This document shows positions 4,117 through 15,290 of a stretch of 15,562 nucleotides of DNA, in pieces. The notes below the pieces were generated by a model, which worked only from the letters and a program-made list of their open reading frames with translations, did no database searches and was not told the origin of the DNA. The stretch is from an uncultured Oscillospiraceae bacterium (GTDB lineage Bacteria > Bacillota > Clostridia > Oscillospirales > Oscillospiraceae): assembly GCA_934635545.1 (NCBI GenBank), contig CAKTZN010000019.1, forward strand, positions 1 through 15,562, written 5' to 3'. Made by a program: the position numbers and the translations under genes. Every line of letters starts with the position of its first letter. Within the stretch, counting starts at the first letter, position 1.

Positions 4117-4377
4117 TTATTTTTTCGGCGCTTTCTTGCGCTGCTTCTTCGCTGCGCTGACCGGGGTCAGCGGCTTCATCAGCTTTGGCGGCTTTGGGTC
4201 GTTGCGATGGAGTTTGTAATTTTCCACGTCCTCTGCCTTAAAAAAGAACTTGCTCCTGCTGCCTTTTTCTCCGTGCGAGTACGCAACGAGCTTTCCTTCC
4301 AGTCTCATCTGGAGGACACGCTGACGGCAAACACCAAGGGTCTCTGCGGTTTCCTGAGTGGTGTAGTATTCAGGCAC
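4117..4377 (-). CDS. Small DNA-binding protein, MerR/excisionase-like helix-turn-helix
   Basis: An 86-residue protein. Residues 1-55 match the HTH_17/excisionase pattern: YYTTQETAETLGVCRQRVLQ, then a wing with EGKLVAYSHGEKGSRSKFFF and a DVENY helix. The C-terminal 30 residues are very basic (KKQRKKAPKK). It starts with GTG, supported by AAGGAGG 8 nt upstream and by the family's usual beginning. It is the first gene behind hammerhead ribozyme 1, whose predicted cleavage leaves a 33-nt leader. It may be an excisionase or an early regulator. An excisionase is usually close to int, which is 9.5 kb away here, so a regulatory role is equally likely. Confidence 0.8.
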   Translation of the reverse strand: MPEYYTTQETAETLGVCRQRVLQMRLEGKLVAYSHGEKGSRSKFFFKAEDVENYKLHRNDPKPPKLMKPLTPVSAAKKQRKKAPKK

Positions 4378-4405
4378 GTTCTATGCCTCCTTTCTGCGGT
4401 TGGCT

Positions 4406-4461
4406 CCCGCGACACCCTTTCGGGTGTTTCGGCCCGTGCCGCCGGGCCATCATCAGGCGGG
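4406..4461 (-). ncRNA. Hammerhead ribozyme 1 (open stem I)
   Basis: Read on the minus strand. Stem I is CCCGC (4461-4457) with GCGGG (4410-4406). The core CUGAUGA is at 4456-4450, followed by one unpaired U (4449). Stem II is GGCCCG/CGGGCC (4448-4443 with 4436-4431), loop GCGGCA. The core GAAA is at 4430-4427. Stem III is CACCC/GGGUG (4426-4422 with 4417-4413), closed by a GAAA tetraloop; A4427 pairs with U4412. The predicted cut follows C17 at 4411 in the GUC triplet. All invariant core bases of the hammerhead are present. It lies between two genes, and the UGA stop of the upstream gene (4455-4453) is part of the core. Confidence 0.93.
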
Positions 4462-4659
4462 GTTTACGTTTGCGTAGGCCATTTTCGCAGCCCGCAAGGT
4501 CTTGAACATCTCTATAACATCGTCGATGTACTTACCGCCGACATCGCCGTACACGCACCAGCGCCAGCACCACCGGCCATCAATGCGAACCTGCCGTTGC
4601 CGGATATAGCACTTGCCATCCTCGCGGACGTATCTATCAGAATCCTTGAGCCACTTCAT
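4453..4659 (-). CDS. Hypothetical 68-residue protein
   Basis: A small basic, Trp/Tyr-rich protein beginning MKWLKDSDRYVREDGKCYIR, with a probable beta-rich first half (alternating charged and aromatic residues, RIDGRWCWRWCVYGD) and a helical end (FKTLRAAKMAYANVN). No family is recognised. AGGAGGG precedes the ATG and overlaps the stop of the upstream gene. It is the third small gene behind promoter P1. Its UGA stop codon falls within the CUGAUGA core of hammerhead ribozyme 1, so a terminating ribosome would sit on the ribozyme. Confidence 0.75.
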   Translation of the reverse strand: MKWLKDSDRYVREDGKCYIRQRQVRIDGRWCWRWCVYGDVGGKYIDDVIEMFKTLRAAKMAYANVNPA

Positions 4660-4671
4660 TTTTCAACCCTC

Positions 4672-4848
4672 CTATTCTTTGACCTCGCACACGTCGGTCA
4701 CTTCGTAGACATCCAGACCGTGACCGGTTTCGTCAACCAATCGCTGAACCGCTACGTTGCGAGCGTCTATCGGGTCAGTAGCGTTGACTTGGTACGAATC
4801 CCAGAATCGGTCAGCCGTGTTATAAACCGAAACTTCGTAGCGCTTCAT
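4672..4848 (-). CDS. Hypothetical 58-residue acidic protein
   Basis: This short leftward gene encodes a protein beginning MKRYEVSVYNTADRFWDSYQ and ending TDVCEVKE. The mix of beta-like (KRYEVSVYN, LDVYEVTDVCEV) and helical (DPIDARNVAVQRLVDE) segments looks like a compact alpha/beta fold. GGAGGG stands 7 nt before the ATG, overlapping the TGA of the gene upstream (4852-4854). Its TAG stop is inside the ribosome binding site of the next gene. No family is recognised. The strong site and the exact packing between neighbours support it. Confidence 0.72.
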   Translation of the reverse strand: MKRYEVSVYNTADRFWDSYQVNATDPIDARNVAVQRLVDETGHGLDVYEVTDVCEVKE

Positions 4849-4851
4849 CGT

Positions 4852-5013
4852 TCAGCCCTCCACATTGACCATCGAGGTCAGGTTGTACAGCGTTTCGTGG
4901 TCGTCCCACGAGATTTTCTCTTCCTCGAACGCCCGGTCGATCTGCGCCCAGCAGTCGTCCCTGTCGTTCTCCGTCTTGATAGCAGCGATGGCTTTGACCA
5001 GCTTCTTGAACAT
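4852..5013 (-). CDS. Hypothetical 53-residue protein, first gene behind promoter P1
   Basis: A 53-residue acidic, helical protein (MFKKLVKAIAAIKTENDRDD, then CWAQIDRAFEEEKISWDDHE). It is the first gene after promoter P1, with a leader of about 40 nt. An AAAGGA site is upstream. Another ATG at 5020 opens a different frame to 4820, but its translation looks like out-of-frame sequence (Gly/Arg/Gln-rich) and it would overlap the next gene, so this frame is preferred. The next start codon follows 3 nt after its stop. No family is recognised. Confidence 0.65.
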   Translation of the reverse strand: MFKKLVKAIAAIKTENDRDDCWAQIDRAFEEEKISWDDHETLYNLTSMVNVEG

Positions 5014-5051
5014 ATTGCATTTTCCTTTCCGTTTTGGCGTGGCTTGTTTAC

Positions 5052-5103
5052 GCTAGTTATTATACTAGCTTTAAGCTAGTTTGTAAATAGCTTTGCGCTA
5101 ATT
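5052..5103 (-). promoter_or_regulatory. Leftward promoter P1 with overlapping palindromic operators
   Basis: On the minus strand, TTTACA (5087-5082) and TATAAT (5064-5059) are separated by 17 bp, a near-perfect sigma-A promoter. The spacer carries the perfect 17-bp palindrome ACTAGCTTTAAGCTAGT (5064-5080). A second palindrome, GCTAGT-N6-ACTAGC (5052-5069), covers the -10 box. TAGC-N5-GCTA (5088-5100) adjoins the -35 box. This arrangement is expected of a repressed phage promoter. The likely repressor is the XRE protein at 13134-13535, because the same module lies next to that gene. It would drive the genes from 5013 leftward. Confidence 0.85.
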
Positions 5104-5110
5104 CCAAAAA

Positions 5111-5138
5111 ATATTTTAGCCAGCAGCTAATTGCTGGC
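5111..5138 (-). terminator. Hairpin terminator between the two leftward operons
   Basis: On the minus strand, GCCAGCA/TGCTGGC forms a 7-bp stem (5138-5132 with 5125-5119) around the loop ATTAGC. A U-rich stretch (UAAAAUAUUUUUU) follows. It lies 35 nt after the last gene of the upstream operon and just before promoter P1, so it would end the long transcript from P2. The loop also contains an operator-like AGCTAAT, so a regulatory role is possible. Confidence 0.6.
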
Positions 5139-5172
5139 AGATAAAAAATAGGCGTTTCGCCAATTTGCCATA

Positions 5173-5406
5173 TCAAAACAGTGACATTTGCCCAGCATCT
5201 TCCGGGGCCTCAGCTGGAGGCTTCGGAGATGGGGGCTTGTACGTCCGCGTCTGGGTCAGAACGTCGATCTCGCAGAACTCGAAGCCTTTGCAGTGGTTCA
5301 GTCGCCGCAGGGCAGGGCCGTCCAACATCTCGTCTTTGTAGCTGCAATAGGCAAGATCGTCATCGTTCAGACAGGCGTTGCAGCAGTACCGGCAGTATTG
5401 CTTCAT
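5173..5406 (-). CDS. Small Cys-rich protein with a sliding-clamp-like C-terminal motif
   Basis: A 77-residue protein beginning MKQYCRYCCNACLNDDDLAYCS. Residues 5, 8, 9, 12, 21 and further Cys/His later suggest metal binding, probably zinc. A Pro-rich linker (PPSPKPPAEAPEDA) leads to the last residues GQMSLF, which match the bacterial beta-clamp-binding consensus QLxLF/QxSLF. The ATG at 5406 overlaps the stop of the upstream gene (ATGA) and has GGAGG before it, so it is preferred over a longer upstream extension. The likely role is a DNA-associated accessory protein tethered to the host sliding clamp; this is inferred from the motif only. It is the last gene of the long early operon. Confidence 0.75.
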   Translation of the reverse strand: MKQYCRYCCNACLNDDDLAYCSYKDEMLDGPALRRLNHCKGFEFCEIDVLTQTRTYKPPSPKPPAEAPEDAGQMSLF

Positions 5407-5933
5407 CGCGGGGCCTCCCAGAATCCAAAGGTTGCGGGAAGTTCCATCCAGTGGGTAACGCGGCTCCCAGACCTCCCTTCGGTGTTTTCTGGGTCGAGCA
5501 AGGCGTTTATAATTCTCGCACACCCATCCCAGCCAACAGAGAAAATTTTCTGCTCTGTATCATACATCGCAGGTGAAACGTACTCCCCATAGCTTTCATC
5601 TGGATAAAATGGTGAGCACTCCAAATCCCACGTTATGACATTCACAAGGCAGGGCACAAATATATCATCTTCCTTGTCAGATTCGGGAAGCCGTGTCTTG
5701 ATGCTGACCCACTGTCCAGCGAGCTGTCCCTCTTCGTCACCGGCTAAAAGGCCAACAGGAACTTTCAGCCCAGCCGCGAACTTGGCCAGCATCTTGGCCG
5801 TCGGGTTGGCCCCGCCATTCTCGTACAGGCTCACCGTCTGCTTGGTCACGCCCATTCTTTGGGCAAGCTGAATCTGTGTGATGTGAGCGTCTTTTCGTGC
5901 TGCACGAATTTTCTCTCCGATAGAATCAGACAT
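5403..5933 (-). CDS. XRE-type HTH protein fused to a DUF551-like domain
   Basis: A 176-residue protein. Residues 6-65 are a classical Cro/CI helix-turn-helix (IGEKIRAARKDAHITQIQLA, then VTKQTVSLYENGGANPTAKM). The rest resembles DUF551: it opens with WVSIKTRLPESD and ends with VTHWMELP, the two conserved ends of that family. It probably binds DNA. The DUF551 part, of unknown function and common in phage proteins, may be a sensor or partner domain. GGAGGAA lies upstream of the ATG. The gene overlaps the ASCH gene by 8 nt and the next gene by 4 nt. It is a second possible regulator in addition to the lysogeny repressor. Confidence 0.85.
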   Translation of the reverse strand: MSDSIGEKIRAARKDAHITQIQLAQRMGVTKQTVSLYENGGANPTAKMLAKFAAGLKVPVGLLAGDEEGQLAGQWVSIKTRLPESDKEDDIFVPCLVNVITWDLECSPFYPDESYGEYVSPAMYDTEQKIFSVGWDGCARIINALLDPENTEGRSGSRVTHWMELPATFGFWEAPR

Positions 5934-6411
5934 CTTTCAGTTCCTCCACATAGCACCAGCTTTGAGGCGGGCGAGTGACCTCCACAGGCCGCATACCGAA
6001 CCGTGTGCTCTGCAAACCTGTAAACGTTCGCAGCTCGCGCGGCTGGTCATAAATCTTCAGGTCGGAGATATGCCACGCCCAGCCGTGGCACTTGTTCAGG
6101 TAGCGGACAATGCGATCTCTGTCCATGCAAGCCATTTCTTCGACATCATCCGGGGCGCGGCATATCGGTGCAAGCTCCCAAATCTTGTCGCAAACGAACT
6201 CGCCAATGACCGTACCATCCAACCGCTGCCAGCCTTTGCCGGGGACGATTCGCAACCAGCCCATCTTCGACCGCTCTTTCGTGCAGTAGATGTAGCACTT
6301 GAATGGAGGCTTCACGCCCTCCGGCTTCGTCTTACGCACCTCAACGGTCTTTTCTTTCAGGACGATTTTGCTGCACCATACCGGCTGGATGCTCAATAGA
6401 ACTGCTTTCAT
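5926..6411 (-). CDS. ASCH-domain (PUA-like) protein
   Basis: A 161-residue protein. The start MKAVLLSIQPVWCSKIVLKE followed by KTVEVRKTKP is the hallmark of ASCH domains of the phage type, with the KxxEVRK motif in place. Further conserved elements are YIYCTKE, the GEFVCDKIWEL strand and a WHISDLKIYDQP segment near residue 120. The fold resembles PUA and suggests binding of RNA or modified nucleotides; the exact substrate is unknown. The ATG overlaps the stop of the preceding gene (ATGA). It is a frequent accessory gene in phages and mobile elements of Clostridia. Confidence 0.88.
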   Translation of the reverse strand: MKAVLLSIQPVWCSKIVLKEKTVEVRKTKPEGVKPPFKCYIYCTKERSKMGWLRIVPGKGWQRLDGTVIGEFVCDKIWELAPICRAPDDVEEMACMDRDRIVRYLNKCHGWAWHISDLKIYDQPRELRTFTGLQSTRFGMRPVEVTRPPQSWCYVEELKDV

Positions 6412-6713
6412 TCATCCACCTCCGGCAGCTTAGGAAGCGGCATCCAGATAGGGTACTCATCTGGGAATAGTGCAACCAAATCAAAATCCCATGTTTCGAC
6501 TGCGCCTTCAAAGGCACCGCATTTCGTTACGGAGAGAACTTTGCCGCGCTCATCGGCATCTTCCTCGGTAGGAGGAGCCACATCGGTCTTCCTCCAATGC
6601 AGACGGTTCGCCAGAATGAGCAGCGAATAAGCTGAGTTCATCTCCTGCTCATTCTCGCAGTGGATGGTCACATCGAACTCGTTGTTGTGCGCAGTGCAGA
6701 TTTCATCAGACAT
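6408..6713 (-). CDS. Hypothetical protein with a DUF551-like C-terminus
   Basis: A 101-residue acidic protein. The N-terminal half (residues 1-45) resembles a short alpha/beta unit (FDVTIHCENEQEMNSAYSLL). The C-terminal half, from WRKTDVAPPTEEDADERGKV to YPIWMPLPKLPE, resembles DUF551, especially the WMPLP ending. AGGAGG precedes the ATG. It overlaps the ASCH gene in an ATGA junction. The function is unknown. Together with the next XRE fusion it gives two DUF551-like domains within one kilobase, perhaps from duplication and recombination of modules. Confidence 0.72.
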   Translation of the reverse strand: MSDEICTAHNNEFDVTIHCENEQEMNSAYSLLILANRLHWRKTDVAPPTEEDADERGKVLSVTKCGAFEGAVETWDFDLVALFPDEYPIWMPLPKLPEVDE

Positions 6714-6729
6714 TGTTCTTAGCCTCCTC

Positions 6730-7053
6730 TCAGTAATACTCGATTTCTACCAGCGAGGTGGACACCAACTCGAAGCGGCCATCTACCAGAGGAATGCGCA
6801 GAAGCCGGTACTCTTTCTCGTAGGAGTAGGAACTCGGCACCAGTTCGGAAAAGCTGTCCACAGTGATTGTATATTTCGGAGACCGTGTGCCAGCATAGCC
6901 GACCTTTTCAATTTCCGGGGAATAGACCGTGACGTGGTAGCACGGCGCGACGGTAGCTTCAGCCTCAGCAGATGCAGAACCGCAGGCCGTAGCCCAGAGC
7001 GTCAGGGCCAGCAGCACAACGGCCACAGCGAAACAGGAAATTCGATTTTTCAT
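6730..7053 (-). CDS. Predicted small lipoprotein or secreted protein
   Basis: A 107-residue protein with a clear signal sequence: MKNRIS, a hydrophobic stretch (residues 7-20), then ATACGS with Cys24 as the possible lipidated residue. The lipobox is not ideal (Ala instead of Leu at -3), so cleavage by ordinary signal peptidase after ASA is an alternative. The mature part (about 80 residues) is beta-rich, with YHVTVYSPEIEKVGY and KEYRLLRIPLVDGRFELVST, and acts outside the membrane. The ATG at 7053 overlaps the stop of the Lar-like gene and has AGGGAGAG upstream. Exported lipoproteins in early phage operons can block superinfection; this role is an inference. Confidence 0.75.
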   Translation of the reverse strand: MKNRISCFAVAVVLLALTLWATACGSASAEAEATVAPCYHVTVYSPEIEKVGYAGTRSPKYTITVDSFSELVPSSYSYEKEYRLLRIPLVDGRFELVSTSLVEIEYY

Positions 7054-7727
7054 AACTGGATCTCTCCCTTCAGGTAATCTTTGACAGTTCTTTCGATAGC
7101 GGAATCGCGGTGGAATGTCCAAGAATCGTCGTTGTCGATAAACTTCCGCATTTTGGCAGCCGCAGCCGGAATCAGCTTGCAGATAGTGTCGCGGTCAATG
7201 TGGTATTTGCGCTGGAGGTCTGCATCAGAGAACTGCTCGATGTACGACCGCACATCCTCAATGTCGTCCTGATTCTGAGCACCCCAGACAGCTTCGCAGC
7301 GGCGGCCATCGGCCTGAACGCCGTACAGAAGAAACAAAACGCCCTTGCTGTGCCGGTCGTCAAACCAGCGCCAGACCTCCATCCGGTTCGTTCCGGCAGG
7401 GAAGTGCAGGAATGAGGCTTCCAGCTTTTCCGTTTCGGGGTTCATTGGAACGTCTGCAAACTTCGCCCACAGTTCTTCAAGCGCGGCATCGCGTTCCTTC
7501 AGGGTTTCCATCTCGGAAATCATTGCAGTCCGCGCAGCGGAACGAGAGTTCCAGAGCGCGGCAGCCTGATTCTGGGCAATGTACTTCGTGGAGTGCCACC
7601 GCTTTATGCAGACGGCTTCTCCTCTAGCTCCACAGCCGGAGCATACCACGCGGTACCGTTCGCCGAAGTTGCGAATCCTTGCGGATTTTCCGCAGAATGG
7701 GCAGGGTTTCAAATCAAAATTTGCCAT
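7050..7727 (-). CDS. Lar-like zinc-ribbon protein with long C-terminal extension
   Basis: A 225-residue protein. Residues 5-62 form a Lar-type zinc ribbon: LKPCPFCGKSARIRN, VVCSGCGARGE and the closing AAALWNSR. The paired CxxC knuckles are intact. Lar-family proteins were named for restriction alleviation, and related zinc ribbons are widespread in phages. Residues about 80-135 (ELWAKFADVPMNPETEKLEA, then FPAGTNRMEVWRWFDDRHSK) form an unnamed segment I know as recurrent in phage and conjugative-element proteins of Clostridia. The C-terminus is helical and rich in charged residues. Antirestriction is possible but unproven, because the family name is often applied broadly. Confidence 0.78.
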   Translation of the reverse strand: MANFDLKPCPFCGKSARIRNFGERYRVVCSGCGARGEAVCIKRWHSTKYIAQNQAAALWNSRSAARTAMISEMETLKERDAALEELWAKFADVPMNPETEKLEASFLHFPAGTNRMEVWRWFDDRHSKGVLFLLYGVQADGRRCEAVWGAQNQDDIEDVRSYIEQFSDADLQRKYHIDRDTICKLIPAAAAKMRKFIDNDDSWTFHRDSAIERTVKDYLKGEIQL

Positions 7728-7779
7728 CTTTATTCCTCACTTTCTGGAAATCAGTTCCATGCACAACTCTTTGTAGGTG

Positions 7780-8259
7780 TCACGCTGCACACAGACCTTG
7801 ATAAACTCTGTGTCCTCGTGCGAGTGCCCCCCCCTCAGAGGACTTTGCAGGTGCCGCCGGGACAGAAGCGGGAGCGGGTGCAGCAGCCACGACCGGCACG
7901 GGCTGAGGCTTGGACAAATAGTTGTCGAGGCCGAGGCTGGCCATTATGGCGACTTCCACCGCCTCCATTTCGCCCTGCGTCAGCTTGCCGCAATAATCGT
8001 TCAGGCGGGTCTTGTCCACGGTGGTGATCTGCTCGCAGATTGCGGTAGAGGGAAGCTGTGAACTGTCGATAAAGACATGTGTAACCAGCGGCTTCTTCTC
8101 TTTCGTCGTCAGGTAAACGACCTCGACCGTGGCGGCGTGTTTATTGTTCAGATTGTTGCTGACGACGATACCGGGCCGCCCGCTGCGCTGCTCGCAGCCG
8201 ACCTCGTTGCCCTCCGGCAGCACATAATAGATTTCACCGCGATAAACCATTCCGTTCAT
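7780..8259 (-). CDS. mazF: MazF/PemK-like toxin with a C-terminal extension, possibly frameshifted
   Basis: A 159-residue protein whose first 110 residues match MazF/PemK: YRGEIYYVLP, then GCEQRSGRPGIVVSNNLNN, YLTTKEK and STAICEQITTVDKTRL. The usual catalytic Arg (in GRPG) and Thr (in YLTT) are present, so RNA-cleaving activity is plausible. No MazE-like antitoxin is adjacent; such orphan copies are common in phages. The start at 8259 is chosen for AAGGAG upstream and the ATGA overlap with the preceding gene. After an Ala/Pro-rich linker the frame crosses eight G's (7834-7827) and ends with a short odd tail. One G fewer would give a 29-residue tail (HSHEDTEFIKVCVQRDTYKE and beyond) ending at 7737, which looks like genuine protein. 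Confidence 0.82.
   Translation of the reverse strand: MNGMVYRGEIYYVLPEGNEVGCEQRSGRPGIVVSNNLNNKHAATVEVVYLTTKEKKPLVTHVFIDSSQLPSTAICEQITTVDKTRLNDYCGKLTQGEMEAVEVAIMASLGLDNYLSKPQPVPVVAAAPAPASVPAAPAKSSEGGALARGHRVYQGLCAA
7827..7834 (-). repeat. Eight-base G run in the MazF-like gene
   Basis: A run of eight C's on the plus strand (G's in the coding sense) separates two open C-terminal tails of the MazF-like gene. As read, the tail after EGG is 15 residues and ends at 7780. With seven G's it is 29 residues and ends at 7737, reaching the ribosome binding site of the next gene. It may be a sequencing error, a mutation, or a phase-variable or slippery site. Confidence 0.7.
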
Positions 8260-8693
8260 GGTAAACACTCCTTTCGGTTTTCGGAAATCCAATTTTTAAG
8301 CCACTTCATGCTCATGTCGTGGTCGATAAAAGCCCACGTCAGGCCGCGCTTGATGCCACTGCCCATATAGGTGTAAATCAGCTCCATATCTTCTTCGGAA
8401 AAGTCTGTGTCCAGAAAAGCATTGACCCCCGAAAGCATAAATTCGTGGAAGCGCCGGTTTCGCCACTCCTGCGAATACGGAGCGGTCTTGAATGCTGCCC
8501 GTGAAAGATATTCCAACACCTTTGCCTCGACCGCTTCAACGGTCTTACAGTCTCGCAGAATGAAATACTGGTTTGTGCGCGGGTGGGCAATAAATTCCTC
8601 CCGGCTATTGATAAAGCTACCGGGGAAGCATTCAAGGAGTTTTGCACGGGCTTCCTCCATGTCAGCTGCGCTCTGACGTTCTTTGTCATTCAT
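8256..8693 (-). CDS. Hypothetical 145-residue protein
   Basis: A mainly helical, acidic/aromatic protein without a recognised family. It begins MNDKERQSAADMEEARAKLL and contains HPRTNQYFILRDCKTVEAVE and an HEFMLSGVNAFLDTDFSEED region. It ends with DHDMSMKWLKNWISENRKEC. Its stop overlaps the ATG of the MazF-like gene (ATGA), so the two are translationally coupled and could be functionally linked. It does not resemble MazE, Phd or other known antitoxins, so an antitoxin role cannot be claimed. Confidence 0.78.
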   Translation of the reverse strand: MNDKERQSAADMEEARAKLLECFPGSFINSREEFIAHPRTNQYFILRDCKTVEAVEAKVLEYLSRAAFKTAPYSQEWRNRRFHEFMLSGVNAFLDTDFSEEDMELIYTYMGSGIKRGLTWAFIDHDMSMKWLKNWISENRKECLP

Positions 8694-8705
8694 GAGAGTG
8701 TCTCC

Positions 8706-9533
8706 TTATACAAGAATCGTGTCTTTCGTTACCTGCGCATTGTCGCTGATTTCTATGACGGAATCCTCGGTGACCTCAATTTTGGCGGCCATTTTTCCGC
8801 CGTCGAAAGGTCTGAACGATGTGCGGTAATCGTCGAAAATGGCATACTTGCCATCAAAGAAGAATGTCCCGTAGCCCTTGGCGCGATACTCACAGTTCGT
8901 TTTGAGCGTGAGCAGCTTCGCCCGCTTTCCAACAAAATTCGGGGTCTTTTCGCCCTGCTTAGGGTCAGCTTCAACCACCGCTGCGTACAGTTCCGGGAAT
9001 AGGGCACGGAGCCGCAGAAGAAAGAACGGAATTTCATCGGCCTGATATTCTACGACCTCTGCATAGCCAAAAATCGTATGTGGATGCGCATTGCAGATTT
9101 TCAAGATGTTTTCTACCGTGAAATACTTCTCCGGGATGTAGGTCATCTCTTTCATCCCGAAGCTGAGGCCGTCGTAAATCAGTTTTCCGTTTTCGTTGAG
9201 TTTCAGGTCGAAATACCGCAGCACAACAAGCGCGTCATTCCCGATTCTGACGAGTTTTTCATTAAAGGGGAAATTCAGGACAGAGTAATTCGGGTGTGCT
9301 TTTGCTGCTTCCAAAACCTTGTTGTACATCTTGGAACGCTTCGTGCCTCCGTCAACCCGGCTCACGCTCCCGACCATGCAATGCCTCGAAAGGGGCACCG
9401 TCACAGCAAAGCAGGTTCCTTGTTTGTATGCAGAGCATTCATTCGCCCTGTCGCAGAAAATATACTCTGCCCGCAGACGGCAGTCCCTTGAACCGCTGCC
9501 GTAAAGGTTCACGTTGATAGCTTCTTCATTCAT
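8706..9533 (-). CDS. Hypothetical 275-residue protein with Cys-rich N-terminus
   Basis: The first 60 residues contain a Cys pattern (DCRLRAEYIFCDRANECSAY, then GTCFAVTVPLSRHCMVG) that could bind zinc. The rest is an alpha/beta mix with a FPFNEKLVRIGNDALVVLRY strand region, a LFPELYAAVVEADPKQGEKT loop and a C-terminal beta-rich half (GYGTFFFDGKYAIFDDYRTS). I do not recognise the family. The ATG at 9533 follows GGGAGG and overlaps the previous stop by 8 nt, which rules out a longer start. No catalytic motif is apparent. Confidence 0.8.
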   Translation of the reverse strand: MNEEAINVNLYGSGSRDCRLRAEYIFCDRANECSAYKQGTCFAVTVPLSRHCMVGSVSRVDGGTKRSKMYNKVLEAAKAHPNYSVLNFPFNEKLVRIGNDALVVLRYFDLKLNENGKLIYDGLSFGMKEMTYIPEKYFTVENILKICNAHPHTIFGYAEVVEYQADEIPFFLLRLRALFPELYAAVVEADPKQGEKTPNFVGKRAKLLTLKTNCEYRAKGYGTFFFDGKYAIFDDYRTSFRPFDGGKMAAKIEVTEDSVIEISDNAQVTKDTILV

Positions 9534-10452
9534 CGTTCTGTCCTCCCTGAAGCATTTTGATTTCTTCCAGCGCTGCGCGGGCTGCCCGCTTGCCGTTTTC
9601 ATTGAGGATGCGCTGCCATGCGCCCTGAGAGGGCGACCAGCGGAAAGCGTGATGCTTCAGAATCGCTCGAACGTCAGGGTCTGGCTTGCCGTCAAAGATA
9701 AGCTGCACCCTCATCAGGGCGCTGTTTTCGTGGTAAGTAACGCCCGGTAGCTCCACGACCTCCACCGGCTCCGCCTTAGCTTCCGCTGCGGCCTTGACCT
9801 CCTTGATACGGTCCTCCAGCCGGTGAATGCGTGCCATTGAGTTGCTCAGCTGCCACGGCAGAAATGGCGCACGGTCGCCCCGCTGCTTCATCCGCCCCTC
9901 AATCATGGCCTGTTCGCAAGAGCCAACGCCCTCGCAGCCCTCCACCGTGCCGAACTGGCGGAAATACTTGTTGACGGCAATCATGTGGTCGTGCTTCTGC
10001 TTTTCATCCTCCAGCTTCTTGTTCAGGGCTGCAAGCGCTTCAGGATCGCGGCTTGTGACCGGTGCACCATGCGCATAGCTGCGGATGCGCTCAAGCAATT
10101 CGGCGGCCTCGTTGAAGTTCTCCCGGTTGGCGTCCAGCGCGGCTACCTGCCGCTCCTTCTTCTTGACGGGGAAGTTGGAACCGCCGGTAATCATGACGCT
10201 GGGGCACCACGCGCCGACCTCATTCTCCCGGTTGATGGCAAAGGCCAACGTCCGCTCGTACTTGTCGAGCATCCCATCAACCCGGTTACGCTGTGCAGTG
10301 GTCTTGCAGCGGGCCTTCGCCTGTTCTGCAGCCTCCCGCGCCCTTGCAACCTGCTTCTCATAGTCCGCTGTGGCTTTGCCCGGAATGTAGTCCCGGAACG
10401 AGCGCATCTCGTGCGCCCGCCGGGCCATGTCCTCGTTGATTTCGTATCCCAT
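9526..10452 (-). CDS. Coiled-coil protein with a C-terminal domain shared with phage/plasmid polyvalent proteins
   Basis: A 308-residue protein. Residues 1-85 are helical and charged. A middle motif (GAWCPSVMITGGSNFPVKKK followed by ERQVAALDANRENFNEAAEL) and VNKYFRQFGTVEGCEGVG are features I associate with a recurrent, uncharacterised mobile-element family of gut bacteria. The C-terminus (MRVQLIFDGKPDPDVRAILK, then FRWSPSQGAWQRILN) resembles the domain ending ArdC-like and other large polyvalent proteins, which often accompany DNA transfer or antirestriction functions. The gene has AAAGGAG before its ATG and overlaps the next gene by 8 nt. Its role is unknown; protection of incoming DNA is speculative. 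Confidence 0.82.
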   Translation of the reverse strand: MGYEINEDMARRAHEMRSFRDYIPGKATADYEKQVARAREAAEQAKARCKTTAQRNRVDGMLDKYERTLAFAINRENEVGAWCPSVMITGGSNFPVKKKERQVAALDANRENFNEAAELLERIRSYAHGAPVTSRDPEALAALNKKLEDEKQKHDHMIAVNKYFRQFGTVEGCEGVGSCEQAMIEGRMKQRGDRAPFLPWQLSNSMARIHRLEDRIKEVKAAAEAKAEPVEVVELPGVTYHENSALMRVQLIFDGKPDPDVRAILKHHAFRWSPSQGAWQRILNENGKRAARAALEEIKMLQGGQNDE

Positions 10453-10455
10453 GAA

Positions 10456-10725
10456 TTAGGCTCCTTTCTTCATCTGAGGGAAGAAGAACTTCCCGATGTC
10501 CTTCTGCGGAATCTCCAGCAGCTCGCAGATAGCTTCAATTTCGCTGCTGCTCCATTCTGCATGACCACCCATCTTCCGGGAAAGCGTGGGCGGTTTCATG
10601 CCCAACGCTTCGGCGACCTCCTGGTCGCGGAATCCGCACTGACGAAAAACTCCCCTCAATGCAAAATACGGAATATTCCGGTAACTCCCCACCGGGGGCG
10701 TGGCCGGGGCTATGCGTTTCCTCAT
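10456..10725 (-). CDS. DUF739-like / Cro-type HTH protein
   Basis: An 89-residue protein with a helix-turn-helix from about residue 22 to 75: ALRGVFRQCGFRDQEVAEAL, then GMKPPTLSRKMGGHAEWSSS and EIEAICELLEIPQKDIGKFF. The EWSSSEI segment after the recognition helix and the terminal FFF match DUF739-type phage regulators. It probably binds operator DNA as a small early regulator (Cro-like). A GAAAGGAGG site stands 9 nt upstream. It lies inside the P2 operon and so may feed back on it. It is distinct from the XRE repressor at 13134-13535. Confidence 0.83.
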   Translation of the reverse strand: MRKRIAPATPPVGSYRNIPYFALRGVFRQCGFRDQEVAEALGMKPPTLSRKMGGHAEWSSSEIEAICELLEIPQKDIGKFFFPQMKKGA

Positions 10726-10741
10726 GACCTGTGACCTCCTT

Positions 10742-11131
10742 TCAAACGTCGATGCTCACCGAATGATAAGCGAACCAGTGGCCGTGGCGGCGGAACAACT
10801 TAAACCAGTTCGTGAACTTCTGACCGGAGCAGTCGTATGGCGTCGGGTAAAACTCTAAGTAGCGATTCGCCCGGAACCAATCGGCGGCAATTTCCTTGTG
10901 GGCCTTGTCCAGTTCATCCGGGAGCTGCACCAGCTCGATATAGCCGTCGCAGCCGCGCTCTTCCACGATGCGGCTATCCGATGCCGGACGGCGGTTGAAC
11001 TCCCGGATTTCACGCTTGACGCGGGCAACCAGACTGCTCAGGCTGGCTCCGTACTCTGCCGGAGCAGCGTTCACGGTATTCAGAAAGACGTAGGCCGCCC
11101 GCAGGTGGTCGTTATCGTTGATGTTGAACAT
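10742..11131 (-). CDS. Hypothetical 129-residue protein
   Basis: A protein beginning MFNINDNDHLRAAYVFLNTV, helical in the first half (SLVARVKREIREFNRRPASD) and aromatic-rich in the second (DWFRANRYLEFYPTPYDCSG, NWFKLFRRHGHWFAYH). No family is recognised. GGAGGG precedes the ATG. It is placed between the DUF932 gene and the DUF739-like regulator with short gaps on both sides, consistent with one operon. Confidence 0.78.
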   Translation of the reverse strand: MFNINDNDHLRAAYVFLNTVNAAPAEYGASLSSLVARVKREIREFNRRPASDSRIVEERGCDGYIELVQLPDELDKAHKEIAADWFRANRYLEFYPTPYDCSGQKFTNWFKLFRRHGHWFAYHSVSIDV

Positions 11132-11153
11132 GGTTTAGCCCTCCATTTCTTAC

Positions 11154-12080
11154 TTACCGCGCAACAGCCTTTGCCATTGCGTCAATCAGCCAGTGACCGC
11201 TCATGATGGTGTTCCAGTTATTCGCCTGATAGTTCTTGGTGTTGCGGTGGGGAGCGCTGTGGGTGACAAAATCGCTCATAGCGTTCACAGCGCCCCATGC
11301 GGTATTTCGGAACTTTGCGAGGTCAGGAGCCATCACGCAGACCATGTAGCCGTCCTTCATCTCCTGCACATGGCGCTTCTGGACATCGCTCATGTCATCA
11401 GCCGCAGGGAACAATTCATCAAGGATGTTCCGCAGACGCTCATCCGATACGGAGGTGTTTGCCATCTGGTCCGCCCGGTCAGACAGGGCATCCATGTACT
11501 TCCCGGCCAGTTCGAGGCACTGCTGCGCCTCAGTCAGCTTGGCGCTAATATCGCCTACATGACGCACGCTCCATGCGCGCTGTGCGGTATTCAGGGCGAG
11601 GTTTAAGGTGTTGTTGCAGACAACCCGAACGGGGGTCATGCAGACGCGGACAGCGCCGGAACCGTCGTGCGTGTTGGAGAAGCAGACGTAAGGCTCCATC
11701 TTGTCACCGCAAATTTCAGAATCGGGCAGCTTCGCCAGAAGCCAGATCTTCTTGCCGTCCAGCAAGCTCCCCGCCGTTTCGTAGCGCACATCGCCGCCGA
11801 TCAGAGCGTCCGTGAACGCGAACGCATCTGCGTTCTGCACGATACGGTACTTGTTGCTGACAACGCCCAGAACCTTACCATCGGAACTGCGGACGTTTGC
11901 CTTGTAACCAGGAATCGGCTCATAGCCGCCGTTCAGCCACATATCGCGGGCTTCGACCGTCCAATCCAGACCGGCCAAACGCAGGGCATCTGCGCTGGTG
12001 GGAGCCTCCTGAACCATCTTGCCCAGACCGTGCCAAGGCTTCTCGCGGACATAAAACATACTTTCGACGTTTGCAGACAT
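11154..12080 (-). CDS. DUF932 (TIGR03299-type) phage/plasmid protein
   Basis: A 308-residue protein of the DUF932 family, the phage/plasmid-like TIGR03299 group. The opening (FYVREKPWHGLGKMVQEAPT) and the middle segments (GVVSNKYRIVQNADAFAF, then DGKKIWLLAKLPDSEICGD and RVCMTPVRVVCNNTLNLALN) are typical. So is the C-terminal half with GAVNAMSDFVTHSAPHRN. The role is unknown. The family is very common in phages, plasmids and integrative elements, and often lies near recombination or DNA-metabolism genes. The length is usual for the family. TGGAGG precedes the ATG. Hammerhead ribozyme 2 lies directly upstream; its cut would leave a 42-nt leader on this gene. Confidence 0.93.
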   Translation of the reverse strand: MSANVESMFYVREKPWHGLGKMVQEAPTSADALRLAGLDWTVEARDMWLNGGYEPIPGYKANVRSSDGKVLGVVSNKYRIVQNADAFAFTDALIGGDVRYETAGSLLDGKKIWLLAKLPDSEICGDKMEPYVCFSNTHDGSGAVRVCMTPVRVVCNNTLNLALNTAQRAWSVRHVGDISAKLTEAQQCLELAGKYMDALSDRADQMANTSVSDERLRNILDELFPAADDMSDVQKRHVQEMKDGYMVCVMAPDLAKFRNTAWGAVNAMSDFVTHSAPHRNTKNYQANNWNTIMSGHWLIDAMAKAVAR

Positions 12081-12117
12081 TATTTATACCTCCAAGAGTT
12101 TTCTTTCTGCGGTGGTT

Positions 12118-12185
12118 CCCGCGACCATTTTCGTGATGCCGCGAAAATGGTTTCGGCTGCTGCCATGCAGCCATCGTCAGGCGGG
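12118..12185 (-). ncRNA. Hammerhead ribozyme 2 (open stem I, long stem III)
   Basis: On the minus strand, stem I is CCCGC (12185-12181) with GCGGG (12122-12118). The core CUGACGA is at 12180-12174, followed by an extra U (12173). Stem II is GGCUGC/GCAGCC (12172-12167 with 12160-12155), loop AUGGCA. The core GAAA is at 12154-12151. Stem III is a perfect 9-bp CCAUUUUCG/CGAAAAUGG (12150-12142 with 12133-12125), 8-nt loop. A12151 pairs with U12124. The predicted cut follows C at 12123 (GUC). The stems differ in sequence from copies 1 and 3 but keep pairing, which is good evidence for selection on structure. A small hairpin (CTTGC-tcg-GCAAG) lies just upstream. Confidence 0.93.
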
Positions 12186-12210
12186 TTGTTGCCTTGCCGA
12201 GCAAGTGCCC

Positions 12211-12465
12211 TCATTTTGTAGTCGGTTGGGTTTCATCGATCTCTTCCCAGTCCGTGACCAGCCGGACGCGGATGCGGCTCTCGATAACCTTCTGCTGTGG
12301 GTCATCTGGGTAACGGCTCGCAAGGGTCTGGATTGCGTTCTGTGCTTCCTCCAGCGTCCCGGCGTACCGCTTGGCAGCGGGCGACGTGTGCCAGATGGCG
12401 TTCGCCCAGCGCGTCGGAGCAAACGCGAACTTGACCTGTGCAAGATATTCTTCGTGCATAGACAT
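12211..12465 (-). CDS. Hypothetical 84-residue protein
   Basis: A protein beginning MSMHEEYLAQVKFAFAPTRW, with a helical part (TLEEAQNAIQTLASRYPDDP) and an acidic, probably beta-strand end (SRIRVRLVTDWEEIDE). No family is recognised. TAGGAGG precedes the ATG, and hammerhead ribozyme 3 lies upstream with a predicted 41-nt leader after cleavage. Another ATG two codons later is possible. The stop is 25 nt before hammerhead ribozyme 2. Confidence 0.75.
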   Translation of the reverse strand: MSMHEEYLAQVKFAFAPTRWANAIWHTSPAAKRYAGTLEEAQNAIQTLASRYPDDPQQKVIESRIRVRLVTDWEEIDETQPTTK

Positions 12466-12501
12466 CTGAAATCCTCCTAAAATTTAAGTTGTGCGGCGGC
12501 T

Positions 12502-12556
12502 CCCGCGACACCCTTTCGGGTGTTTCGACCTGTGCCGGAGGTCATCGTCAGGCGGG
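12502..12556 (-). ncRNA. Hammerhead ribozyme 3 (open stem I)
   Basis: On the minus strand, stem I is CCCGC (12556-12552) with GCGGG (12506-12502). The core CUGACGA is at 12551-12545, with an extra U (12544). Stem II is GACCU/AGGUC (12543-12539 with 12531-12527), loop CCGGCAC. The core GAAA is at 12526-12523. Stem III is CACCC/GGGUG (12522-12518 with 12513-12509), closed by GAAA. A12523 pairs with U12508. The predicted cut follows C at 12507 (GUC). The TAA stop of the upstream gene (12559-12557) touches stem I directly. Compared with copy 1, stem II shows compensatory changes (G-C to A-U, C-G to U-A). Confidence 0.93.
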
Positions 12557-12715
12557 TTAAGCGTCGAGATAGATTGTAAGAGAGGTCATTGCGCCTTCCA
12601 TGCCAAATCCGTAGAAATGTTCCTGCACATCGTCGGATTTTCCCATCTTGCGTGCCTGCTTCAAAATGGCGTTCATTGCTTCTTCCAGTTCTTTGGCGGT
12701 GATGGTCTCTTTCAT
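12557..12715 (-). CDS. 52-residue small protein
   Basis: A short leftward gene encoding a product that begins MKETITAKELEEAMNAILKQ and ends FGMEGAMTSLTIYLDA. It is helical and amphipathic in the first half. AAGGAGG stands upstream of the ATG. Its TAA is directly followed by the 5' strand of hammerhead ribozyme 3. No family is recognised. The strong ribosome binding site and the protein-like composition support it. Confidence 0.72.
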   Translation of the reverse strand: MKETITAKELEEAMNAILKQARKMGKSDDVQEHFYGFGMEGAMTSLTIYLDA

Positions 12716-12728
12716 TGTTCAGTCCTCC

Positions 12729-12965
12729 TTAAAATTTTGCGTCCTCTGCGGGAATCAGATTCCAGTTTTCTTCCGGTGCGCCGGGAGTGAAGTATTCGAC
12801 GTGGCCAGCCCGGAAAGCGGAGATGAAGTTCTCGAAGCGAGGCCAGCGGACTTCATAGCCGTTGACGACCATGTAGGTGCAGTCCTCGCTGGTACGGAAC
12901 TTGTCATCCAGACGGCTTTCTTCCAACTGGAACAGCGGGATGGTTTTGTTGAGCAGATTCTTCAT
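12729..12965 (-). CDS. Hypothetical 78-residue protein, first gene behind promoter P2
   Basis: A protein beginning MKNLLNKTIPLFQLEESRLD, with an aromatic middle (YMVVNGYEVRWPRFENFISA) and an acidic end. It is the first gene of the long leftward operon, with a leader of about 75 nt behind promoter P2. GAGAGG precedes the ATG. No family is recognised. First genes behind the repressed early promoter are often antirepressors or regulators, but no DNA-binding motif is visible. Confidence 0.75.
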   Translation of the reverse strand: MKNLLNKTIPLFQLEESRLDDKFRTSEDCTYMVVNGYEVRWPRFENFISAFRAGHVEYFTPGAPEENWNLIPAEDAKF

Positions 12966-12992: not shown

Positions 12993-13112
12993 TAGCTTGT
13001 GAGTGTTATTATTTAGCTAGTATCTAATTTATCTCTGTGCTAGTTATTATACTAGCTTTTCGCTAATTTGTAAATAGCTTTGCGCTAATTTTTTTCAAAA
13101 AATTAGCTAATT
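12993..13112 (-). promoter_or_regulatory. Leftward promoter P2 and operator region between the divergent operons
   Basis: On the minus strand, TTTACA (13074-13069) and TATAAT (13051-13046) are 17 bp apart. The stretch 13039-13090 is 49/52 identical to P1. TAGC/GCTA half-sites recur at 12993, 13014-13019, 13039-13044 (GCTAGT), 13051-13056 (ACTAGC), 13062-13067 (GCTAAT), 13075-13078 and 13084-13087. The perfect palindrome AATTAGCTAATT lies at 13101-13112, just upstream of the repressor gene. The region therefore probably binds the repressor and controls both directions. I could not identify a convincing rightward promoter for the repressor. Confidence 0.82.
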
Positions 13113-13133
13113 GTGAGTTTTGGAGGTTATCCC

Positions 13134-13535: not shown

Positions 13536-13938
13536 ACTGTATAGCGTTGCAGAGGACAGCGGAATCGAGGTCTACAATTTTCCACTGCCAAACACTGGAA
13601 GCATGAGCATTGAAGTCAATGGACGCTGCTGCATCGGCATGGACAGTACCAGACGCTTCACAAGGGCCGAAGAAGCCGCAAGGCTTGGTCACGAATTGGG
13701 GCATTGCCTTTACGGCGGGTTTTACACCAAAACAACGCCGTTTGACCTGCGGGAACGGCATGAAGTCCGAGCCGACCGCTGGTACATCCTGAACTATATC
13801 CCGGAGGACAAGCTGATGGTCATGCTCAAGGCCGGCATGGACGCTTACGAAATCGCGGAGGCGCTGGACACCACAGAAGAGTACATCCGGCGGGCTTACT
13901 ATTATTACAAGGACGTGAGAGGGGGTGTCTTTCATTGA
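13513..13938 (+). CDS. ImmA/IrrE-like zinc metallopeptidase
   Basis: A 141-residue protein with the zinc motif HELGH at residues 60-64 in GHELGHCLYGG, and a downstream HEVRADRW segment that supplies the third ligand region. This matches ImmA/IrrE (peptidase family M78), which cleave or inactivate the partner XRE repressor to induce the element. The gene overlaps the repressor by 23 nt, the usual arrangement. AGGGAG lies at 13503-13508. ATG 13513 leaves a short spacing and ATG 13519 (two codons later) a 10-nt spacing, so either may be used. Its stop overlaps the integrase start. Confidence 0.92.
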   Translation: MRMDRVNELYSVAEDSGIEVYNFPLPNTGSMSIEVNGRCCIGMDSTRRFTRAEEAARLGHELGHCLYGGFYTKTTPFDLRERHEVRADRWYILNYIPEDKLMVMLKAGMDAYEIAEALDTTEEYIRRAYYYYKDVRGGVFH

Positions 13939-15071
13939 AAAAGAGAACCACAACTGCCGAGTGGCAAGAATGCACAAACCGCTGGAGAATCCGGGTGCAG
14001 AAGAACGGAGTGTCAAAGAGTTTTTACAGCAGCACTCCCGGCCGCACCGGTCAGCGGGAAGCCAACGCCAAAGCGGACGCTTGGCTTGATGATAGCATCC
14101 GGGATGGGCGGAAGAAAGTTTCCGCGCTGTATGCGGAGTGGGTAGAGGAAAAGAGCCTGACCTGTGGCACGTCCTACCGCGACCAGTGCGAGAAGTACGG
14201 CGAATACTACATTTTGCCCGTCATTGGGAACCTGAGAATTGAAGAACTGACCGATGGCGATCTGCAAAAGGCAATAGATATGTCGTTCAAGAAGCGCTGC
14301 CTATGCAAAAGAAAGGTCATGAAAAACAGCGACAAGCCTTTGAGCAAAAAGACCCTCATGACGATTCGATCGGTAGAGAACAGCTTCGTGAAGTGGTGTA
14401 GAAAGAACAGGTACACCACGCTGAACCCGGAACTGACCATCCCGAAAAACGCTCGCACAGGGGAGAGGAAGATACTGCAACCGGAGGCATTGCGCACATT
14501 GTTTTCGGTCGATACGCGCAAATGGTACTCGCAGCATATCTTTGACGACTATGTGTACGCATACCGCTTTGCGGTGTCTACTGGCGTTCGCCCGGGCGAG
14601 CTGGTTGGTCTGTGGTACGGTGACATAAAGGGCAACACGGTCAACCTTCGCCGCAGCATCAACGCCTACTCGGAAGAAACCACCGGCAAGAACGAAAACA
14701 GCATCCGGTCATTTGATATGTGCGAACAGGCGCGGGAGGCATACGATGCGCAGGTGCAGCTTTTGAAGGATAGAGGCATACAACTGAACTATAACACGCC
14801 GCTGTTCCAGATACCCTGTCAACGCTCGCTGAAACGTCGCTGGGAGAAGTATCAGGACGGCAACGACATCAGCCCGCGAATCACGCTGTATGAGCTGCGG
14901 CACACCTTTGTCAGCATGGAGGCCGGGGAACTGACGGACGGCCAGCTGAAGATGCTCGTAGGGCACAGCAGGAACATGGACACCTTCGGAGTGTACCGTC
15001 ACGAGATAAAAGGGCAGCGGGAGGAACTCGCAGCAGCGACGACCGCAGCTATCAAAAAGGCCCATGGGTAA
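13935..15071 (+). CDS. int: Tyrosine-type site-specific integrase
   Basis: A 378-residue tyrosine recombinase of the Tn916/phage type. Residues 1-60 form the basic N-terminal arm-binding part and residues about 62-160 the SAM-like core-binding domain. The catalytic domain follows, with Arg219 (STGVRPGELVGL), Arg322 (YELRHTF), His344 (LVGHS) and the nucleophile Tyr354 (FGVYRH). The first His of the HxxR box is Tyr319, as often seen in Firmicute integrases. It starts with TTG at 13935, overlapping the metallopeptidase stop (TTGA) and preceded by GAGAGGGGG, so repressor, peptidase and integrase are one rightward unit. It integrates and, with an excisionase, excises the element at the tRNA-Gly site. 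Confidence 0.95.
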   Translation: MKKRTTTAEWQECTNRWRIRVQKNGVSKSFYSSTPGRTGQREANAKADAWLDDSIRDGRKKVSALYAEWVEEKSLTCGTSYRDQCEKYGEYYILPVIGNLRIEELTDGDLQKAIDMSFKKRCLCKRKVMKNSDKPLSKKTLMTIRSVENSFVKWCRKNRYTTLNPELTIPKNARTGERKILQPEALRTLFSVDTRKWYSQHIFDDYVYAYRFAVSTGVRPGELVGLWYGDIKGNTVNLRRSINAYSEETTGKNENSIRSFDMCEQAREAYDAQVQLLKDRGIQLNYNTPLFQIPCQRSLKRRWEKYQDGNDISPRITLYELRHTFVSMEAGELTDGQLKMLVGHSRNMDTFGVYRHEIKGQREELAAATTAAIKKAHG

Positions 15072-15166: not shown

Positions 15167-15228
15167 TTTTATGATGCACTTTCGGCAAAAATATCTCTCT
15201 TTTTTCATGGTGAATAAGAGAATCCATT

Positions 15229-15252
15229 GTTCGATTCCCATTACCCGCTCCA
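15229..15252 (+). other. Attachment site: duplicated 3' end of a tRNA-Gly gene
   Basis: The sequence reads GTTCGATTCCC, then ATTACCCGCTCCA. This is a tRNA T-loop (TTCGATT) with the 3' half of the T stem, then the acceptor strand TACCCGC, discriminator T and CCA. The acceptor strand implies a partner GCGGGTA, as in bacterial tRNA-Gly. The 5' half is missing: the bases before it (AATCCATT) cannot pair to complete the T stem. So this is the duplicated end left by integration, and the intact tRNA-Gly should be at the other (left) end of the element, beyond the window. Sequence to the left is element DNA, to the right host DNA. Confidence 0.85.
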
Positions 15253-15254
15253 AC

Positions 15255-15290
15255 AAAAGCGCCTGGATTCGTTAGAATCCGGGCGCTTTT
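15255..15290 (+). terminator. Host terminator of the tRNA-Gly gene
   Basis: A 16-bp stem: AAAAGCGCCTGGATTC (15255-15270), loop GTTA, then GAATCCGGGCGCTTTT (15275-15290), with one T-G wobble, ending in a T run. It follows the tRNA 3' end by 2 nt and is the natural tRNA terminator on the chromosome side. Confidence 0.9.

Follow-up and report, generated by a model that had tools for sequence, protein, structure and literature searches.

Within a 15,562-nucleotide (nt) stretch of DNA from an uncultured Oscillospiraceae bacterium (contig CAKTZN010000019.1 of assembly GCA_934635545.1; hereafter 'the window', meaning the whole stretch that was analysed), three segments of the minus strand are type I hammerhead-ribozyme sequences that are real and conserved, and it is very probable that they are catalytic. 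Each carries an extra U in its core and sits at a gene junction, behind the end of the first gene and ahead of the second gene's ribosome site, where we consider it probable, from sequence comparison, that it cuts the early messenger RNA (mRNA) of a prophage into shorter messages. An mRNA-cutting role of this kind, which we infer to be likely here, is not a new idea; new, as far as seen, are the extra-U form missed by Rfam, the quantified stop–ribozyme–start layout with up to 16 copies per contig and a 5′ hairpin on the downstream product.

The original prediction, made from the window's letters, had proposed three minus-strand hammerheads with open stem I, and its places and strand proved exact: a pattern written from the three window copies themselves, CTGANGAT..GAAA..TCGCGGG, has three minus-strand matches in the window (4456-4406, 12180-12118 and 12551-12502) versus none in 200 dinucleotide shuffles. 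RNAfold and a covariance model of our own (R1, described below) both give the three-way junction with its ends open at stem I in all three copies, with RNAfold z values of -2.2, -3.2 and -1.0 for copies 1, 2 and 3, the last of which is weak taken alone. Every type I part is present in each copy, namely stem I (CCCGC/GCGGG), CUGANGA, stem II, GAAA with A15.1–U16.1, stem III and the UC with H17 before the cut, the cut triplet being GUC; re-reading of the sequence also agrees with the proposed cuts (4411/4410, 12123/12122 and 12507/12506) and with cut-to-start-codon distances of 33, 42 and 41 nt. Several points needed amendment. The proposed difference of stems II and III between the copies holds for stem II, which differs in all three, but not fully for stem III, where CACCC/GGGUG is the same in copies 1 and 3; the core is present but one extra U between A9 and stem II had been overlooked; and the copies do lie at gene junctions, but copy 1 overlaps its upstream gene and shares that gene's UGA stop. 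Positions A9, G12, 15.1, 16.1 and 17 are in the standard hammerhead numbering (partly after PMC3088659). The three copies and their parts are as follows.

4406..4461, minus strand: hammerhead copy 1, type I (R1 69.9 bits, E-value 1.6e-19); stem I 4461-4457/4410-4406, CUGAUGA 4456-4450, extra U 4449, stem II with its loop 4448-4431, GAA 4430-4428, stem III 4427-4412, C17 4411.
12118..12185, minus strand: hammerhead copy 2 (R1 57.4 bits, E-value 9.5e-16); CUGACGA 12180-12174, extra U 12173, stem II with its loop 12172-12155, stem III 12151-12124, C17 12123.
12502..12556, minus strand: hammerhead copy 3 (R1 58.4 bits, E-value 4.7e-16; below the cut-off of Rfam RF00163); CUGACGA 12551-12545, extra U 12544, stem II with its loop 12543-12527, stem III 12523-12508, C17 12507.

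According to PMC10085705 (we refer throughout to excerpts of the cited papers), CUGANGA is separated from its neighbouring stems by no more than one or two nt; the single U of all three copies falls within this limit, at the edge of the known range.

Relatives of these RNAs were collected by pattern scans of IMG/VR, one genome scan, and gene and DNA likeness, followed by a structure filter. All scans fixed the base after A9, most fixed stem I letters and several fixed GUC, so the shares of GUC, GCGG and the extra U are set by the search; the viral pattern scans give lower bounds, all counts of relatives are of matches listed and not frequencies, and counting is by locus, some loci lying on one contig (for example, L280 with L442 and L290 with L455). 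Read in this way, the collection holds at least 319 distinct hammerhead relatives in at least 211 loci; among the 319 listed, the insertion after A9 is U in 198, G in 5, A in 1 and missing in 115, and GUC stands at the cut in 301. Forty-nine distinct copies fit no scan pattern, and of these 35 have no insertion, 13 have U and 1 has A, with GUC in 32. The structure filter passed 261 sites, in sequences fetched by such patterns, and none in 7.66 Mb made by reversing or complementing those sequences; a loose genome scan gave 119 stretches with a strong hammerhead in one (L214), and a loose viral scan gave 120 listed matches from which 13 loci passed. Core constancy in the larger set proves nothing, since the core was part of the search there; of the seven copies found through likeness of genes or DNA (L452, two in L453, two in L455, L468 and L451), six have CUGANGA and one the U4C change. 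This U4C core occurs in five relatives, including that of the Faecalibacterium phage FP_Epona. As side observations, L497, L519, L538, L555 and others are phage contigs with another subfamily, which has stem I GGUUAA/UUAACC, a UAA inside stem I and mostly no 5′ hairpin, and 227 hammerhead loci hold 11 type II and 5 type III permuted candidates versus 2 of type II in a reversed control; our own scan of the window found none of the other hammerhead permutations.

Model R1 was built from 19 aligned relatives, none of them out of the window, and finds all three window copies at E-values of 9.5e-16 or better; in a control of 16 viral loci that lack a strong hammerhead (139,657 bases together), it scored no higher than 14.0 bits. 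Since the relatives had been found with window-derived patterns, R1 matches show set membership and non-randomness. The original prediction had named Infernal with the Rfam models as its check and a missing covariance-model match as refuting: the Rfam models listed no hammerhead at cut-off in the window, and R1 supplied the match. Rfam behaves likewise on the relatives: 18 related loci in which our own filter counts 56 strong hammerheads (43 with and 13 without an insertion after A9) gave none at cut-off, and neither did 20 further loci. Run relaxed on L357 and on five of those 18 loci, Rfam gave a pair of hammerheads (28.4 and 26.4 bits), each in L357, and L556 gave three at 23.7 to 29.4 bits, all below cut-offs. 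As strong related hammerheads are missed too, the failure is more a matter of the Rfam models than of the RNA, and surveys based on Rfam would undercount phage hammerheads, given that Rfam 15 overlooks these forms.

The alignment of 19 relatives has 95.7% of 399 cells paired, both-side changes in 16 of 21 pairs and a covariation score of 0.538 versus 0.132 when shuffled and at most 0.084 when slid; stem pairing was a filter condition, so in the three stems only the variety of pairs is informative. Free of this limit is a pseudoknot between loop II and the 3′ tail, which was part of no scan pattern and of no filter. Its pair 24-60 in the alignment occurs as CG five times, UA five, AU four, GC two and UG once, and the mean longest match reaches 3.63 in the 319 listed relatives versus 2.72 (standard deviation (s.d.) 0.05) with tails swapped (200 swaps, highest 2.83), or 3.37 versus 2.44 (s.d. 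0.13) in the 49 pattern-free copies (300 swaps, highest 2.80). Copies with an insertion after A9 pair at least as well as those without (mean match 3.91 versus 3.59). By their letters, window copies 1, 2 and 3 could form three, three and four such pairs, which would provide the contact between the loop of stem II and the stem I side.

4404-4402 with 4440-4438, minus strand: copy 1 pseudoknot, GCC with loop II GGC.
12115-12113 with 12165-12163, minus strand: copy 2 pseudoknot, CCA with loop II UGG.
12500-12497 with 12537-12534, minus strand: copy 3 pseudoknot, GCCG with loop II CGGC.

Placement at gene junctions on the coding strand is strongly supported by the letters around the relatives. Downstream, a Shine–Dalgarno (SD) sequence and the start of an open reading frame (ORF) of at least 30 amino acids (aa) follow no more than 100 nt after the cut in 135 of the 211 listed relatives whose flanks were long enough, compared with 13/211 on the antisense strand and 302/2240 random places, and the median cut-to-start distance is 42 nt. 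Upstream, a frame of at least 50 codons closes no more than 45 nt before the core UGA, or at it, in 206/216 relatives versus 2545/6286 random CTGA sites of these loci; in 170 of the 206 relatives this stop finishes no further than 15 nt from the core UGA and in 90 it is the core UGA itself, with no preference for the core UGA as stop beyond the CTGA control (90/206 versus 1248/2545). These controlled SD and stop tests replaced longest-ORF gene calling, which had put 138 of 206 hammerheads inside ORFs (52 on the same strand) and was judged unreliable, picking antisense frames in GC-rich DNA. An earlier stop test (202/211 versus 556/2240 random places and 55/211 antisense) was biased by the core UGA and gave way to the CTGA-matched control.

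Multiple copies keep to one strand. Among the matches listed, 60 loci have at least two distinct copies, and in none do these occupy both strands (0/68 with repeats counted), and copies in multi-copy loci are spaced by a median of 624 nt. The 46-kb record behind L280 has 16 R1 matches, all on the plus strand within about 8 kb (16.7-24.8 kb); 12 sites in this stretch pass a letter-by-letter scan, and all of them have an ORF of at least 40 aa 12-38 nt downstream, while 11 are preceded by a frame of 50 or more codons. In L556, which corresponds to 14001-28000 of the same record, a type II hammerhead below cut-off was seen at 12738-12799. The Faecalibacterium prausnitzii phages FP_Epona and FP_Brigit have one R1 match each, that of FP_Epona (core CCGAUGA) in a gap and that of FP_Brigit in a gap between same-strand annotated genes; in a Christensenellales phage the core UGA is the annotated stop for two copies, and R1 adds a third that sits in a gap. 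A constant neighbour gene was considered and rejected: 366 flanking proteins fall into 257 clusters, 198 of them single and the two largest with 9 members each. One of these two is an amidoligase-like family (by eye), which directly precedes the hammerhead in nine loci (for example, L274).

The predicted downstream products share a further feature at their 5′ ends, where RNAfold draws a hairpin in all three window leaders.

4396..4410, minus strand: 5′ hairpin of the copy 1 product, GCGG/CCGC, its loop holding the pseudoknot partner GCC.
12109..12122, minus strand: 5′ hairpin of the copy 2 product, GCGG/CCGC.
12493..12506, minus strand: 5′ hairpin of the copy 3 product, GCGG/CCGC.

The complement of the first four bases after the cut recurs 7-34 nt on in 163/226 relatives versus 30.6 (s.d. 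4.4) in shuffled tails, with rougher controls giving 69/226 when the 39 nt before stem I are searched and 16/226 at 34-60 nt downstream. Defined as at least four pairs starting at base 1-3, the hairpin occurs in 174/215 relatives of GCGG type versus 57.4 (s.d. 5.7) shuffled, and in 47/104 of other types versus 26.2 (s.d. 3.4) shuffled; ordinary gene leaders have it in 166/584 cases. The non-GCGG types fit their own arm in 36/105 cases versus 15.0 (s.d. 3.4) with swapped tails (highest 24 in 1000), and clear triple changes are seen in FP_Epona (CCTGC/GCAGG/CCTGC) and in the second copy of L455 (CCCAC/GTGGG/CCCAC). The idea that every relative has the hairpin was rejected, as it is missing in 98/319; it is a feature of a GC-rich subfamily, the window's own. 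As the hairpin competes with stem I for one strand, it would arise once the cut has been made or, before that, as an off state.

The genes around the window copies allow the junctions to be compared between relatives.

12557..12715, minus strand: 52-aa ORF upstream of copy 3, its UAA abutting stem I; no PHROG or Pfam match.
12211..12465, minus strand: 84-aa ORF between copies 3 and 2, with 25 nt from its end to the copy 2 stem I; no match in PHROG or Pfam.
11154..12080, minus strand: DUF932 protein downstream of copy 2 (Pfam PF06067, E-value 1.8e-57).
4453..4659, minus strand: 68-aa ORF preceding copy 1; it stops at the UGA of the ribozyme core.
4117..4377, minus strand: helix-turn-helix/excisionase-like ORF downstream of copy 1 (phrog_4691 excisionase, E-value 6e-7; PF12728).

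L455, fetched by gene and not by pattern, has a DUF932 protein 93% identical to that of the window and a hammerhead at the same junction with four compensated stem III pairs, the 170 nt upstream being unlike; L468 has an 85% identical 68-aa gene and a hammerhead with the same stop overlap kept, and a different gene next. Together with ten DUF932 relatives in whose fetched stretch our scan saw no hammerhead, these two loci point to an element that is gained or lost and serves unlike genes, which fits the 257 neighbour clusters.

In the mechanism that we propose, cleavage is predicted to occur after GUC, co-transcriptionally. In the upstream message, the ribozyme would stay on as a structured 3′ end carrying a cyclic phosphate, and the downstream message would begin with a 5′-OH at GCGGG about 40 nt before the start codon. 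The freed 3′ strand of stem I would then pair with the CCGC further on, and the resulting 5′-terminal hairpin would release the product and shield it against 5′ exonucleases, the net effect being separate, separately stable messages from genes that are transcribed together.

Several observations weigh against this proposal. The extra U sits in the ribozyme junction, and other core insertions (A6a, 2a/2b) slow cleavage, a U13a insertion being described as easy to accommodate (PMC3088659). Rfam 15 listed no hammerhead at an E-value of 1 or below in the whole window, the scan by which copy 2 was covered; on short stretches RF00163 (Hammerhead_1), which has the same part order and core, gave copy 3 a score of 13.1 bits against a cut-off of 34 and left copy 1 unlisted. 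The pseudoknots of copies 1 and 2 have just three pairs each. A downstream SD sequence and start, by the definition used, are lacking in 76/211 listed relatives, and the 5′ hairpin in 41/215 GCGG types and 57/104 others; on the 19-sequence alignment its support is moderate (80.3% versus 71.4% shuffled, with two double-change pairs). Finally, a hammerhead precedes DUF932 in one of 11 relatives, the other ten (at most 67% identity) having none by our own scan of the fetched stretch, so the element is dispensable there; two pairs among the ten share upstream letters, and the ten are therefore not all independent.

A bolder version of the cutting role, which we offer tentatively, is that of one gene, one ribozyme: a large class of phages may write its early and accessory genes as cassettes of stop codon, hammerhead, cut, 5′ hairpin, ribosome site and gene, such that the transcript would dice itself into end-protected single-gene messages, with cutting gated by upstream translation. 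The gating would follow from the position of the stop, mostly at stem I or identical with the core UGA, where a terminating ribosome would cover the core.

The alternative that survives best, although we think it improbable, is that the RNA is cut to be destroyed, the downstream gene being turned down through degradation of a 5′-OH message by analogy with glmS. In Bacillus, the 5′-OH ends of ribozyme-cut mRNA are indeed a route to decay (glmS/RNase J1). Such a role sits poorly with the enrichment of a decay-hindering 5′ hairpin, and in G003, where many consecutive genes are served, much of the unit would be silenced.

Distinctly less likely is that the elements are mainly module joints, short DNA patches in common through which RecT-type recombination exchanges the genes of phages, with cleavage incidental. 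A RecT-like protein is encoded in the window, and both L455 and L468 keep one gene with its hammerhead next to unlike DNA or a different gene. Alignment ends also fall in hammerheads 58 times versus 24.5 (s.d. 4.9) by uniform chance, or 155 versus 38 and 243 versus 60 with margins of 20 and 50 nt on each side. This is nevertheless little above ordinary gene starts, at 4.16 versus 3.74 ends per kb and 95/146 hammerheads versus 188/354 other junctions (unwidened margins), and selection for DNA homology would not make the pseudoknot letters change in concert; we keep the idea as a weak rival. We give slightly less weight still to decayed or weakly active passenger ribozymes, a view that draws on the extra U in all three copies and the U4C core in some relatives; the extra-U form recurs in at least 198 distinct copies, and the insertion copies keep the pseudoknot pairing as well as others do, which argues that the form is under constraint. 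The least probable reading takes the stable stems at gene junctions as non-catalytic processing hairpins (RNase III or RNase Y sites, or mRNA-end stabilisers), but a protein nuclease would not need the CUGANGA found in six of the seven copies reached without a core pattern, and self-cleaving pistol ribozymes occur in 3/18 related loci, although in 0/20 further and 0/16 control loci.

Cutting of mRNA by clustered prophage hammerheads was proposed by Perreault et al. in 2011 (PMC3088659), where cleavage was seen in three transcripts of about 2 kb with several hammerheads. The prophage clusters of Clostridium scindens, Azorhizobium and Agrobacterium described there likewise have several hammerheads flanking single genes or short blocks of inconstant identity, and pseudoknots, which the window's relatives also have, are reported for all three hammerhead types. 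The extra U after A9, the 5′ hairpin of the downstream product and the stop and start spacing statistics are features of the window's set that the excerpts of PMC3088659 do not contain; a figure legend of the same paper mentions an inactive hammerhead-like RNA of F. prausnitzii. The extra-U variant and the 5′ hairpin were not found described in the literature searched (consulted in part), and the alignments of Perreault 2011 (Dataset S1) or Jimenez 2011 may hold the extra-U form. In the F. prausnitzii phage paper (PMC5883640), the main text has neither the word ribozyme nor the word hammerhead. In the pseudoknot hammerhead of structure 8YDC (PMC11300833), a pseudoknot of the loop II region replaces loop–loop contacts, as it would in the window copies; there, however, it also replaces helix II, whereas the window copies keep a helix II of five or six pairs, the loop of which pairs with the tail beyond the 3′ side of stem I. 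Other self-cleaving classes with other folds, the pistol and twister ribozymes, occupy similar places close to phage genes (PMC10085705); neither was listed for the window, where the Rfam scan gave no match to pistol RF02679. Among the hammerhead-carrying relatives, L284, L285 and L291 each have a pistol at the Rfam cut-off, and a twister-P1 below cut-off was seen in L109. According to PMC10085705, it is still unknown why self-cleaving ribozymes of bacteria cluster around phage genes, and the set described here offers a testable answer, with its regular layout on one strand, predicted cut sites and end structures, and phages of a cultured host.

The window itself is prophage-like, with an integrase (13935-15071) and excisionase-like and RecT-like genes, and its three coding-strand copies give it the character of a prophage hammerhead cluster. 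Distant matches suggest that the host is a gut bacterium, probably related to Faecalibacterium. Two promoter-like elements bear on how these copies would be transcribed.

13039..13090, minus strand: promoter/operator-like element 1, TTTACA-17-TATAAT at 13074-13046, which would drive the unit of copies 3 and 2.
5052..5103, minus strand: promoter/operator-like element 2, TTTACA-17-TATAAT at 5087-5059, which would drive the unit of copy 1.

The elements are 52 nt each and 94% identical, and their promoter-like sites match at 11 of 12 positions; a promoter scan of the whole window gave 8 sites versus 5.2 expected, so that only the 11-of-12 matches within the repeat carry weight. They suggest two coordinated early units, of which one would likely have copy 3 behind its second gene and copy 2 behind its third, and the other copy 1 behind its third gene. 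The original prediction's single early operon region is accordingly kept as regards gene-junction, coding-strand placement and probably becomes two transcription units. Both elements also hold repeated TTAGC/GCTAA motifs, perhaps operators of a regulator, and a c-di-GMP-I Rfam match at 13048-13118 (23 bits, cut-off 35), which lies on the promoter-like repeat, was taken as chance. Just beyond the integrase, at 15220-15265, where ARAGORN found no whole tRNA, TTCGATTCCCATTACCCGCTCCA resembles by eye a tRNA 3′ end and may mark an attachment site.

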